From assembly GCA_001803205.1 (NCBI GenBank), contig MHBE01000005.1, positions 1 through 64,000 of the forward strand: 64,000 bases of DNA, in the 5' to 3' direction. A model generated the notes under the pieces. That model saw only the letters and a program-made list of their open reading frames with translations, searched no databases and was not told the origin of the DNA. Position numbers and translations under genes: made by a program. The number at the start of each line of letters is the position of its first letter. The stretch's first letter is position 1. Source of the DNA: Lentisphaerae bacterium GWF2_38_69. Lineage in GTDB: Bacteria > Verrucomicrobiota > Lentisphaeria > Victivallales > GWF2-38-69. Of this stretch, positions 38,299 to 43,704 are shown piece by piece.

Positions 38299-38351
38299 GG
38301 ATAAAAATGGTGGAGCATACCGTGTTCGAACCGGTGACTTTTTGACTGCCA
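38299..38351 (-). repeat. attachment-site repeat: displaced tRNA-Ala 3' fragment
   Basis: Matches 43618-43671 over the flank, CCA end, acceptor 3' strand, T arm, variable loop and part of the anticodon arm; similarity stops after GCCA at 38351. Differences: one A fewer in the A run, two G-to-T changes in the T arm and one C-to-T. It cannot be a working tRNA. The rest of 38352-38602 is AT-rich with no gene that I can see. Confidence 0.85.
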
Positions 38352-38602
38352 TTCGGAAATATTAGCTACAAAATAAATTTGTTTGTTTATAATAGAGTGA
38401 TTTTATTTCAAAGCCCGTACAAATAAGGACATTGTTGGACAACAACAATAATCATAATTTAAATAAAACATGATCCAATTCTATTGGAAGGACTTTATTT
38501 TATTGAAATATTTACAATGAATTAAATAAGCCTAATGTAATATTTTCACAAAGGATATGTAAATGTTTCACAGTTTAATATTAAATGGGTAAAGGTTATC
38601 AT

Positions 38603-38645
38603 ATAAAGGTAATATTTTTATATAAGGGTAATAATAAGGGTAATA
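38603..38645 (+). repeat. 12-bp iterons before the Fic gene
   Basis: ATAAGGGTAATA occurs twice in perfect tandem (38622-38633, 38634-38645). A one-mismatch copy, ATAAAGGTAATA, is at 38603-38614, and a weaker one lies near 38590. They sit between the att repeat and the Fic start (38727). Such arrays can bind an integrase arm domain, an excisionase or a repressor. Confidence 0.65.
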
Positions 38646-38726
38646 TCCCGGGTTTTTGACAGAAAGTATGTTGAATTAAAGAATATTATAGCTTTATTTT
38701 GTTTTTTATAAACTTAATCGGAACAA

Positions 38727-39779
38727 ATGGATTATATGAATACATTTAAAAAATTTAATCAGGGTTTAAAAGAAATTCCACTGGCTACTACATGGCTGCT
38801 TAATGATATTGCAGAGATGAAAGGCAGGCAGAAACTTTATACAAATCAGTCTCCACATACACTGAAAGTGCTCAAAGAACATGCCATTATCGAGAGTTCT
38901 GTTTCCTCGAACAGAATTGAGGGGGTTGAAATCGATAATAAACGAATCGGAACAGTTATTTTCGGTAGGCAGCATTTGAAAGATAGAAATGAAGAAGAAA
39001 TCAGAGGTTACAGGGAAGTACTAAATTTAATACATTCTGAGGCAGAGAAACTTAAGTTGTCGACAGACTTAATTTTAAAAATGCACAAAATAATGAGGGG
39101 AGATATTTGGGATGCAGGTCAGATAAAAGATAGAAATTCAGATATTATTGAGACTTTTCCAAATGGAGAACAGAGAGTTCGGTTTAAAACCGTAAGTGTA
39201 GAAAAGACATTAGAATATCTAAATAATTTAATATTTGACTATAACAGCTCAATTCTTGATAGAAAAATACCGGATCTTATAGGGCTGGCTTCATTTAATC
39301 TTGATTTTCTATGTATACATCCTTTCAGGGATGGCAACGGAAGAATATCAAGACTTTTATTATTAGAAGAATTGTACCGATTTGGAATTGAGGCAGGGAG
39401 ATTTGTAAGTTTGGAAAAAATTATTGAAGAAACCAAAGAGCAGTATTATGAAACTTTGGAAATCTCATCAAAGGGTTGGCACGAGTCAAATCATGATCCC
39501 TGGCCATACATAAATTATGTTTTGTTTATTTTGAAAGAACTTTATAAATCCTTTGAAAGCAAATTTATAAATTTAAAGTCGGCAAAAGGAACTAAAACTG
39601 ATTCGGTCATAAAAGCCATTAAATCCTTTAATAAATCTTTTTCAATTAGGGAGTTGGAATTTAAATGTCCCGGCATCAGTCGTGAAATGTTAAGGAAAGT
39701 GCTTAAAGACCTAAAAAAAGATAATATTGTGTCTTGTGAAGGGAGAGGTATTGTGGCAGTTTGGAAAATAATTGAATAA
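38727..39779 (+). CDS. Fic-family protein (putative AMP transferase) with inhibitory motif
   Basis: 350 residues. The Fic catalytic motif HPFRDGNGRISR begins at His198, with all expected residues (HxFxDGNGRxxR). The N-terminal region has S61-N-R-I-E65-G66, which fits the (S/T)xxxE(G/N) inhibitory helix, so the enzyme is of the self-inhibited class II type. A winged-helix-like C-terminus (SIRELEFKCPGISREML) follows, common in stand-alone Fic proteins. It usually transfers AMP to a protein target. Its stop overlaps the integrase-remnant start by one base (TAATG), so the two are translationally coupled. An ATG three codons in is an alternative start. Confidence 0.9.
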   Translation: MDYMNTFKKFNQGLKEIPLATTWLLNDIAEMKGRQKLYTNQSPHTLKVLKEHAIIESSVSSNRIEGVEIDNKRIGTVIFGRQHLKDRNEEEIRGYREVLNLIHSEAEKLKLSTDLILKMHKIMRGDIWDAGQIKDRNSDIIETFPNGEQRVRFKTVSVEKTLEYLNNLIFDYNSSILDRKIPDLIGLASFNLDFLCIHPFRDGNGRISRLLLLEELYRFGIEAGRFVSLEKIIEETKEQYYETLEISSKGWHESNHDPWPYINYVLFILKELYKSFESKFINLKSAKGTKTDSVIKAIKSFNKSFSIRELEFKCPGISREMLRKVLKDLKKDNIVSCEGRGIVAVWKIIE

Positions 39780-40429
39780 TGGCTAAACGGCAATCAAATG
39801 GATCCGGACATTTGCATAGGAGAGGGAAGATTTATTATTATCGTTATATGATAAAAGGCAAGCTTAAAGATGTATCTCTCAAAGTTACTACTGAAGCTGA
39901 AGCAATAGAGAAGATCAAAACTGATTACTTGCCATTTTTGAATGCAAAAACCAAGGAACAGCTCGAATCAGCTCTTAAATGGCAATCTGATGAGTATGCA
40001 CTTCCCAAAATAGCCGAACGCTATAATAGAAATCCTGACGGCATCCGAGTTGATACAATGAAAGTTTTTAAATTTTCAGGGCTAGAAACCTCTGAGGATA
40101 AAGGAAACCTTCAAAGGCAGAAGAATATTTGCAGATATGGATTTCATTCTTTCAGGCATTCTTTTGCCAGCATCATGGCATCAAACGGTTACAACATAAC
40201 TATGCTTGCTCAAGTCCTTGCCGATGATACCAAAACTCTTGAAAAGTATTATATCAATATTGACGACAAAGTTATCAAAAATACCTTTGATGATCTCTTT
40301 TCATCCAGTTTAATGAGCCATTCTAATATTGGAAGTAATGCTCTTATTCAAAATATTAGAAATCAATTACAAAGCATGACAACTAGAGAATTGGAAGATA
40401 TTTTAGAATATATTAAAAATCTAAAATAG
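39779..40429 (+). pseudogene. Internally deleted tyrosine recombinase (phage-type integrase)
   Basis: 216 residues in an intact frame. The first 60 residues look like an arm-binding domain (GSGHLHRRGKIYYYRYMIKG). The C-terminus keeps the last part of the catalytic domain: FHSFRHSFAS with His123-x-x-Arg126, and LEKYY at 157-158 as the Tyr nucleophile region. The core-binding domain and the first catalytic block with the leading Arg and Lys are missing; whole integrases have 350-400 residues. The frame being kept open over the deletion is odd. It can still bind DNA in principle but should not recombine. Confidence 0.8.
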
Positions 40430-40447
40430 ATTTTTGCTACTTTAATA

Positions 40448-41648
40448 TCAAGTGTTAATAGTTTGAGCCTTGTTCATTTCAGAATTAGCTTTTCCCATTG
40501 TCGGATTCTTTAATAATTGTAGCTCTTTGTTGGCAATCTTTTCGATTTCAGTAAAATCAGCTTCTTTCAGATTATTAAATATAATTTCTCCATATTTAAT
40601 TTTTGCTTTTATAGTTAAAGGGTTGGATTCAATTAAATTAAAAAAGGTTATATTATTTTCTCTAGACTGAAGTAACTTATAAATTTTTATATACACATCA
40701 TCATAAGTAGGAAAACTTTGAGAAAGACCTTCAAAATATTTATTAATATCTTCTTTGTAATTAAACATTCCATTATTTAAAACAGTAATAATAAAATCAT
40801 TAGTTGTTTTTATTATGTCAATATCAAAAGAGCATTGTATAGCATTTGGAATAAAGCTTAAAATATCTTTTCTGATTTCATCGTCTATTAAGGCATTGCC
40901 CAAAAAATATTGAAAAAATAATATATAATAATTTTCTTTATAACTTTCTAATTGATTACGGGAGCTTACAGGAACTTTCTTTAATTTTTGATAAGCCGTT
41001 TTTATATTGCTATAAAATTCAGGTTTTAACTCTCTCGATAAAAGAGATTGACAAAGATTCCCAATGTCTTGTGGTACCTTGGTTAATCTGTCGATAATAT
41101 GCTCTGTTTCTTTTTCTCTTAAATCAAGAGAACACCTTATCTAAGTTGCTATTAATCAAGTCATTTAAATCCTTAATGTCATTCTTTATTTTATTACTAG
41201 CTGATAAAAGGTCTTTAGATTCATCTCTCATTAATGCTATCTTTTTAGATATATAATTAATATATATGCCCAAAAATATTGAAAGGATAACGAATATAAG
41301 TCCAACAATTCCTAGCACATAAGAGGCCGTAGCAAACTGGGCAGAAATAGCACTCAATACATTAGCCAAAATATTTTCATCTATCTCGATCCTGTTATTA
41401 ATTTGATTTATCTTATCTGCGATGTCTTTATCAGACAAGATAGTCGAGATTTCTTTATCTTTAGCAATATTTTTTGTTATCAGATCTTCTTTATTTGGTA
41501 AGTTTTTGATAGCTAGAACATTTGTTTTATTAACTATTACCGAAGTATCAGTATCAGAACTCTCATTTGCATTTAATTGGATAAAAAAAATAAATATAAT
41601 ATAGAAAAATACTGTTACTAACAAATTATGCTTACAGAGTATATTCAT
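40448..41648 (-). pseudogene. Island membrane protein split by a frameshift, unknown function
   Basis: The upstream piece (41648-41124, 174 residues) has a signal or anchor segment (LLVTVFFYIIFIFFIQLN) and a second membrane helix at about 105-130. Its stop is at 41124. The +1 frame is open from 41140 to 40448 without a stop and continues the same helical, charged character (LREKETEHIIDRLTKVPQDI). That second frame has no ATG, GTG or TTG until the TTG at 40903, which would start in mid-domain. One protein of about 400 residues cut by a +1 shift between 41124 and 41140 explains this best. Two separate genes remain possible. No family recognised. Confidence 0.6.
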
Positions 41649-41792
41649 GCTAATTTTATGTTCCTTTTATTTATTAGAAATATTTGCTATCCTTATAATA
41701 TGGAAGATATCCCGCATTTAAGTCATTGCTTTCTTTTATTAAAGCACTGACATAAATAATAGCTATTATCTTGTAATTTATTTTCATTAAAG

Positions 41793-41900
41793 CTAATAAA
41801 CTAAGACTCCTTCTAATTCAGGAAACAGAATTCTGAGGAGTTTATTTTTCCATTCAGCCCAGACTTTTGAATATCTCTTTGAAAAACCTTTGCAGGATGT
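41793..41900 (-). pseudogene. Possible transposase relic
   Basis: A stop-to-stop frame of 35 codons without a start, reading FSKRYSKVWAEWKNKLLRIL then FPELEGVL. The EWKNKLL...FPEL spacing is reminiscent of the N-terminal part of IS110-family transposases (xKNRLxxLLxxxFPE). The rest of the gap 41649-41923 shows no gene. Confidence 0.2.
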
Positions 41901-41923
41901 TCAAAGTTTCTATCAACGCCTTT

Positions 41924-43162
41924 TTACTCTTTCATAAGCTCAAGAGCTGAGATATTAGAATAAATTTCATTTGTCGTATTTCTTGTGATTCCAATGTCTT
42001 TAGCCAATCTGGTAAACTGCTTGACAGCCTCACAAGTTTCAGAAATTATTTCCTTCGCTTTTTCAACCTTTAAATCAATCAGAGAGGCAAGCTTTAATAT
42101 TTCTTTCGATGAAGGATTCCTGCCATTTCCTGAGACAGAAGTAGTATGCTCTCCACCAGGGCCAAGGGAAAATGTTAAATCATAGGAAGGAGCAAGAGAC
42201 CAAGTTCCGGCACTATTCATTATAAAAGCAAAATTCTTGCTATGATCATCCCTATTATGCGCGGCAATATTAAATACCATCATTCTAAAAGCTGTTATTG
42301 CATCTTCATAATTTTTCGTAAGATTTAAAGTAACTCTCAATAGAGTTTCATAATCTATTGAAGGCATCCTAAAATCTGCATGTATCATATTCCCAAGGGT
42401 CAAGACATGCTTTCTTGTATTACCTATTTTCCGATCAAATCTTTTGATTCCAAAATAACTATTTCCATGCTTGTCAGAAAACAATCTGACTTCAGGAATA
42501 TTCAAATGCGCAAGTTTTGCCATCTGAGCATAGACATATTCCAGTTTTGCGGCATCTGTAAAGTCATTAGGATTACGGAATTTAATAAGCCAGTGTTCAT
42601 ACCCATCTGGAAGTTCTGATTCTCCTGAAATAAGTTCAGTTCCGTTAAAGCCTACAAGTATTTTAGGTCTTGCTCCACCCGGAGAGCCGCCAGCTTTTGC
42701 CATTACCGGGAGTATTTCATCTGTTTTTCCTTGAAGAACTTCAATAGAATTTTCTGACAATTTATGTAAATCCAAAAGATTATCCTGAACAATATCTATT
42801 TCTGAAGCAGGTTCATAGGTTAGGGCTCCCATGCCTCTTTCGCCTATATATGCTAATCTATCTATGATCGTTATGTCTTTAAGTGCTTTATTGTGCTTCC
42901 TGAAAAATCTATCCATAAGTAGCATACCCCATCCGTCAGGGAGAGAGTCATTAAAAACCCCGAAAGACTCACGAGGATATGAATCTTTATTTTCTTGAAT
43001 CCCGGAAGTAAAATTCAGTTTAAACGGAGAAATATTAAAACCAGTTTTTAAATAACTTGAATCATACTCAAAATAAACTTTTCCTGCTTTCGTTTCAGCC
43101 AATGTCCCTACATGGATAGCTTTCAGAGGATTCTCTTTTAGATAGACATTAAGTTTTCTCAT
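41924..43162 (-). CDS. hipA: HipA-family Ser/Thr kinase toxin
   Basis: Type II toxin kinase, 412 residues. The N-terminal HipA domain (VYLKENPLKAIHVGTLAETKAG) is followed by the catalytic domain. The latter has the Gly-rich loop AGGSPGGARPK, KFRNPNDFTDAAKLEYVYAQ, the catalytic loop HNRDDHSKNFAF and APSYDLTFS (metal-binding Asp). All kinase motifs are intact. In E. coli HipA phosphorylates glutamyl-tRNA synthetase; the target here is unknown. It overlaps the upstream antitoxin gene by four bases. Confidence 0.93.
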   Translation of the reverse strand: MRKLNVYLKENPLKAIHVGTLAETKAGKVYFEYDSSYLKTGFNISPFKLNFTSGIQENKDSYPRESFGVFNDSLPDGWGMLLMDRFFRKHNKALKDITIIDRLAYIGERGMGALTYEPASEIDIVQDNLLDLHKLSENSIEVLQGKTDEILPVMAKAGGSPGGARPKILVGFNGTELISGESELPDGYEHWLIKFRNPNDFTDAAKLEYVYAQMAKLAHLNIPEVRLFSDKHGNSYFGIKRFDRKIGNTRKHVLTLGNMIHADFRMPSIDYETLLRVTLNLTKNYEDAITAFRMMVFNIAAHNRDDHSKNFAFIMNSAGTWSLAPSYDLTFSLGPGGEHTTSVSGNGRNPSSKEILKLASLIDLKVEKAKEIISETCEAVKQFTRLAKDIGITRNTTNEIYSNISALELMKE

Positions 43163-43467
43163 ATTCTTCCTCTTTTTCGCTTGTAGTTATCTTCTTTTTG
43201 CTCAAGCTCCGAAATGGTCAGAGTAGTAACAGAAGGAAACAAGTTGAGAAAACCGTCCAGACAGCCTAGAGCATTGGCTATTTTTAACAGACTTGAAAGC
43301 GATATATCGCCCGATTCCTCAAACCTTTTTAGAGTTGGAGCCGGAACCCCTGATTTTGTAGCTAGAGTAGTTCGCTTATAACCAAGCTGCAATCGTAGTG
43401 ATTTTGCTCTCTCTCCAATCTTCTTCTTTACTTCAACTGGCAAATAGATATTTATATTATCGCTCAT
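43159..43467 (-). CDS. hipB: HipB-like XRE-family antitoxin
   Basis: 102-residue helix-turn-helix protein: SLRLQLGYKRTTLATKSGVP then APTLKRFEESGDISLSSLL is a standard XRE motif. A basic C-terminal tail (KRKRGRI) follows. Its stop overlaps the hipA start (43159-43162), the usual antitoxin-first order. The N-terminal DNINIYLPVEVKKKIGERA is unusual for HipB and may add a short helix. It probably represses its own operon; no palindromic operator was located with confidence. Confidence 0.88.
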   Translation of the reverse strand: MSDNINIYLPVEVKKKIGERAKSLRLQLGYKRTTLATKSGVPAPTLKRFEESGDISLSSLLKIANALGCLDGFLNLFPSVTTLTISELEQKEDNYKRKRGRI

Positions 43468-43627
43468 ATATTATCTTTTATTATTCATTATAAAGTATAG
43501 TAGATATTATATTATCCATTATAGAAATAAATAGTGTTAAAGAAGTTTTCTATTAAAGATTTTTATATCCCTTACTCTCTATTCATTTAGAGAATAAATA
43601 TTAGGCTAATTCAGGGTGGATAAAAAA

Positions 43628-43704
43628 TGGTGGAGCATACCGGGGTCGAACCGGTGACCTTTTGACTGCCAGTCAAACGCTCTAGCCAACTGAGCTAATG
43701 CCCC
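43628..43704 (-). tRNA. tRNA-Ala (GGC), island integration site
   Basis: Minus-strand cloverleaf GGGGCAT...ATGCTCC with the G3:U70 pair diagnostic for alanine. The anticodon loop CTGGCAG gives GGC. CCA is encoded at 43628-43630. The 3' half is repeated at 38299-38351. Confidence 0.96.

Follow-up and report, generated by a model that had tools for sequence, protein, structure and literature searches.

A probable tRNA-Ala(GGC) island, small and decayed, with toxin-type cargo in a Lentisphaerae bacterium

The window, a 64,000-nucleotide stretch of contig MHBE01000005.1 of Lentisphaerae bacterium GWF2_38_69, contains an intact tRNA-Ala gene and a displaced copy of its 3' half with a short block of genes between them. 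This arrangement raises the question of whether an integrative element entered the tRNA gene, and whether that element can still move. The locus is very probably a small integrative element that inserted at tRNA-Ala(GGC) and has since decayed, with toxin-type cargo. The island is ordinary and, judging by its integrase remnant, immobile. Three features define its boundaries.

43628..43704, minus strand: intact tRNA-Ala (GGC anticodon), the putative regenerated target gene (ARAGORN)
43618..43674, minus strand: att copy at the intact tRNA, nt 31-77 plus 3' flank (two-copy alignment)
38299..38354, minus strand: displaced tRNA-Ala 3'-half fragment, the other att copy, decayed (alignment and stem pairs read from the sequence)

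The displaced copy spans tRNA nt 31-77 (from the anticodon stem to CCA) and continues for 9-10 nt into the 3' flank. Alignment of 38299-38354 with 43618-43674 covers 57 columns, of which 4 are substitutions and 1 is an indel, which confirms the direct repeat of the original prediction and corrects its count of three mismatches and one indel. The tRNA aligned to the left flank with a local score of 74 against a best score of 25 in 200 shuffles, and the similarity is well above chance. The repeated segment begins shortly before the anticodon loop and extends through the tRNA 3' end. The intact tDNA and the displaced fragment share one orientation and bound the island, which runs from 38299 to ~43617 (5.3 kb); positions 43628-43704 are the intact gene itself. 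This att geometry supports the original prediction of an integrative element in tRNA-Ala, which cited the habit of integrases to target the tRNA 3' end and rebuild the gene.

The two copies differ in their state of preservation. The alignment shows a G-A mismatch in the T stem of the displaced copy and a change at position C32, and every T-stem pair is kept in the intact copy. The decay of the displaced copy fits a loss of selection on the displaced half. No comparable shortened copy of another tRNA was found in the window, and the matches listed for the remainder of the genome included no further copy of the tRNA-Ala fragment. Of the two site types in Islander, anticodon-loop sites are the more frequent, with 2083 of 3919 islands (PMC4383910). 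In form, the repeat reads as the classic signature of a tRNA-integrated, anticodon-type island. An age for the insertion based on the divergence of the att copies was rejected, since they may already have been different when the element integrated.

The original prediction placed Fic, an integrase remnant, HipB/HipA and unknown genes between the repeats. That gene content holds, with one unknown gene that is apparently split by a frameshift.

38584..38645, plus strand: three iteron-like direct repeats of the AAGGGTAATA type, upstream of fic
38727..39779, plus strand: Fic, 350 aa, class II, SoFic-like (Pfam Fic 5.8e-14; PADLOC SoFic 7.2e-31; 8uqu 9.5e-77; motifs)
39779..40429, plus strand: tyrosine integrase remnant, 216 aa (Pfam Phage_integrase 7.4e-05; alignment with 22 full-length relatives)
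40448..41648, minus strand: orphan gene in two frames (open reading frames)
41924..43162, minus strand: HipA kinase-type toxin, 412 aa (Pfam HipA_C 2.4e-46, Couple_hipA 8.3e-15; E. coli HipA structures; motifs)
43159..43467, minus strand: HipB-type HTH antitoxin, 102 aa (Pfam HTH_3 1.6e-08; HipB model 2.9e-04, under its curated cut-off)

The integrase remnant was aligned with 22 relatives, mostly of 430-515 residues, to define what has been lost. About 65 residues at its N-terminus and 150 at its C-terminus are retained, and the HxxR box and the tyrosine are among them. An in-frame internal deletion of ~230 aa removed the core-binding domain, Arg-I and the Lys hairpin, and with them half of the catalytic domain. 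A tyrosine recombinase that lacks the core-binding domain, Arg-I and Lys cannot be an active recombinase. The remnant should be inactive because these parts are missing from its sequence, and the predicted loss of mobility is upheld on this ground. The best relatives found share 30-43% identity with its C-terminal part, and none was found in viral contigs and plasmids. The island contains no phage, conjugation or replication genes. The intact tyrosine integrase asked of active islands is absent, so the locus is filed as a degenerate rather than an active island.

The position of the remnant was compared with that of related integrases. Among the relatives fetched, those placed directly 3' of a tRNA or tmRNA, within ~300 bp of its 3' end, are codirectional with it in 16/16 cases (distinct integrases at L037, L040, L044, L045, L047, L050, L099, L100, L101, L102, L103, L104, L105, L263, L266 and L267). 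A seventeenth, on the 5' side of its tRNA in genome G003, was left out of this count. The targets of the full-length relatives include tRNA-Ala(GGC) in G003 and G017. The remnant in the window is a plus-strand gene at the fragment end, directed against the tRNA and 3.2 kb from the intact gene, and hipB holds the expected integrase place 160 bp from the intact tRNA. The remnant breaks the 16/16 pattern, which means that either the element was rearranged or the integrase came from elsewhere; the remnant may not be part of this insertion. Codirectional placement beside the tRNA is a habit of the integrase family and not a definition of islands. The odd placement leaves the att evidence intact and weakens the assumption that the integrase represented by the remnant made the insertion.

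These observations give weight to a variant of the main reading in which the att pair's own integrase is gone and the Fic-integrase block derives from a second element or an internal rearrangement. Base composition points the same way: the GC content of hipBA is ~37% and that of the rest of the island is 26-33%. The variant is weakened by the lack of any other trace of a second element, as a single integrase remnant and a single fragment are present. The three closest integrase relatives (G023, G027 and G018) also have no tRNA nearby within the stretches fetched, and the placement rule may fail for their branch. The variant is a real possibility that falls somewhat short of an even chance.

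Possible further integrative elements were noticed in G003 and in the source genome. In G003, which is closed and belongs to the same order, tRNA-Ala(GGC) (C1:3495869-3495945) is flanked by integrases on both sides, and the 5' half of the tRNA with its 5' flank recurs as a perfect 56-bp repeat ~35.7 kb away (C1:3531567-3531622; L269, L270). The arrangement resembles an island in the 5'-half site, which is the rarer one, placed back to back with a 3'-half island. Two contigs of the source genome (G000) end in a primase-like module downstream of full-length integrases (C16:34535-35151 and C32:89395-90011, 87% identical), which suggests at least two larger integrative elements. No 3' att fragments of the relatives' islands were found within the 7-20 kb fetched.

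Composition inside and outside the island, which the original prediction had offered as a check, came out partly in its favor. The island is AT-rich, with 31.5% GC compared to 37.7% in the remaining window, or 6 points lower, and the lowest other 5.3-kb stretch in the window has 34.6% GC. The GC content of hipA and hipB is close to the host value. Codon usage is host-like for most island genes and clearly deviant only in hipB, so composition by itself is no proof of foreign origin.

ThiI alignment across 84,980 species genomes was used to find the genomes nearest to the source. The only close ones were G001 (JAJXWI01) and G002 (a Victivallales MAG), both of the same family. In G001, tRNA-Ala, thiI, tolC and rsmE are still grouped, and a single additional gene separates tRNA-Ala from thiI. 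An empty site is unreadable in G001 because no more than 192 bp of contig follow the tRNA 3' end. No empty site was found in these two same-family genomes, neither of which shows both flanks. The left flank is not conserved in the family: its GH3 gene has different surroundings in G001 and was not detected in G002. Neither Fic nor HipA had a match in the two genomes. Fic is present in 9/41 genomes and HipA in 13/41, counting the source genome, and their contexts differ wherever the neighborhood was read. A separate feature of G001 is a ~116-bp unit with 22 nt of the tRNA 3' end, repeated in tandem directly behind tRNA-Ala (C22; L097:1-192). The two copies align over 95 bp with one mismatch; they lie at the contig end, and the array may be longer.

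Tandem repeats of a tRNA end can evidently arise, as these two G001 copies with their 95-bp-plus unit and 22 nt of the tRNA-Ala 3' end demonstrate, and the fragment in the window might likewise be a local duplication or rearrangement that owes nothing to an integrase, with ordinary variable host genes between the copies. This is very unlikely; the start of the repeat falls exactly on the anticodon loop, its orientation is the expected one, and an integrase remnant and genes of patchy distribution lie between its copies.

By its sequence, Fic is an intact SoFic-like class II protein. It has the N-terminal inhibitory motif SNRIEG at residue 61, the active-site motif HPFRDGNGR at 198 and a winged-helix-like C-terminus. 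These motifs conform to the class II pattern ([S/T]xxxE[G/N] with HPFxxGNGR), and the protein aligns with the solved relative 8uqu. Its score of 38 bits with the NCBIfam SoFic equivalog model is far below the cut-off of 550 bits. Class II Fic proteins are kept inactive by their own N-terminal helix (PMC3667792), and an anti-phage role of Sofic through abortive infection has been reported (PMC12249575). The AAGGGTAATA-type repeats upstream of fic are possibly integrase arm-type sites or an operator.

The ATG of the integrase remnant overlaps the fic stop codon. This overlap, the in-frame deletion and the 216 open codons could be taken to mean that the integrase derivative is not debris but a kept DNA-binding or partner protein co-translated with Fic, and E. 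coli Sofic does have a 47-aa antitoxin gene directly downstream (PMC12249575). This explanation is extremely improbable, since a third of deletions keep the frame and a recent one requires no selection, no integrase neighbors the Fic relatives in the stretches read from G030, G036 and G027, and the short form has no relative among the matches in 198 genomes, which are longer frames. Recruitment of the deleted integrase as a co-translated partner or regulator of Fic has a slighter chance still; if true, the two genes would constitute a new kind of Fic module.

The hipBA genes form what is, by its sequence, an intact toxin-antitoxin pair. The HTH antitoxin gene adjoins and overlaps hipA by 4 bases, and HipA bears the SPGGARPK loop, the catalytic DDHSKN motif and SYD. 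The original claim that the element kept its toxin-type genes is borne out by the intact frames of Fic and HipBA.

The orphan gene encodes a membrane protein in two frames. The N-terminal frame (41124-41648) has a signal-peptide-like start and a TM segment, and the C-terminal frame runs from 40448 to ~41140 with no standard start codon near its beginning. A single frameshift near 41126-41140, either real or an assembly error, is the best account of the two frames. No relatives of the C-terminal frame were found in 198 genomes of the class, plasmids or IMG/VR, and its structure prediction had a mean pLDDT of 45.5 and was uninformative. Sub-threshold Pfam matches (Ham1p-like, DUF496, HxlR and similar) were taken as chance.

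A decayed integrative element at tRNA-Ala(GGC) remains the preferred reading, and the anatomy of the locus suggests the following history. A small integrative element would have entered tRNA-Ala(GGC) by recombination at its anticodon loop. The gene at 43628-43704 would have been restored by the 3' half that the element brought, with the resident 3' half displaced to 38299-38354. Most mobility genes would then have been lost, the sole integrase being the internally deleted remnant, and the island would thereby be fixed in place. What is left as cargo would be a SoFic-like Fic that inhibits itself, HipBA in intact form and the frameshifted gene for an orphan membrane protein. From their families, Fic and HipBA likely act in stress response or abortive-infection defense.

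Fic, hipBA and the locus as a whole each have a closest known system. The island Fic shares with SoFic and EcSofic the N-terminal inhibitory motif, HPFxxGNGR, the winged-helix-like C-terminus and a similar length. It differs from EcSofic in having no AS1-like small downstream antitoxin gene; the integrase remnant is next instead. The hipBA genes resemble HipBA type II modules in that the HTH antitoxin gene comes first and overlaps hipA, and HipA has the N-terminal and kinase-like domains with the catalytic motifs, although it is distant from E. coli HipA (E = 1.4e-09). The locus as a whole shares with Islander-type tDNA islands the intact tDNA, the same-orientation 3' fragment, the anticodon-loop crossover, an integrase sequence, cargo and a GC deviation. 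It differs from them in that the integrase is apparently dead and lies reversed at the fragment end, and in its small size of 5.3 kb. The island is of a well-known kind and adds no new mechanism. It is a clear small example, in a little-studied Victivallales-type lineage, of a tRNA island that appears to have lost its mobility with its toxin-type cargo intact.
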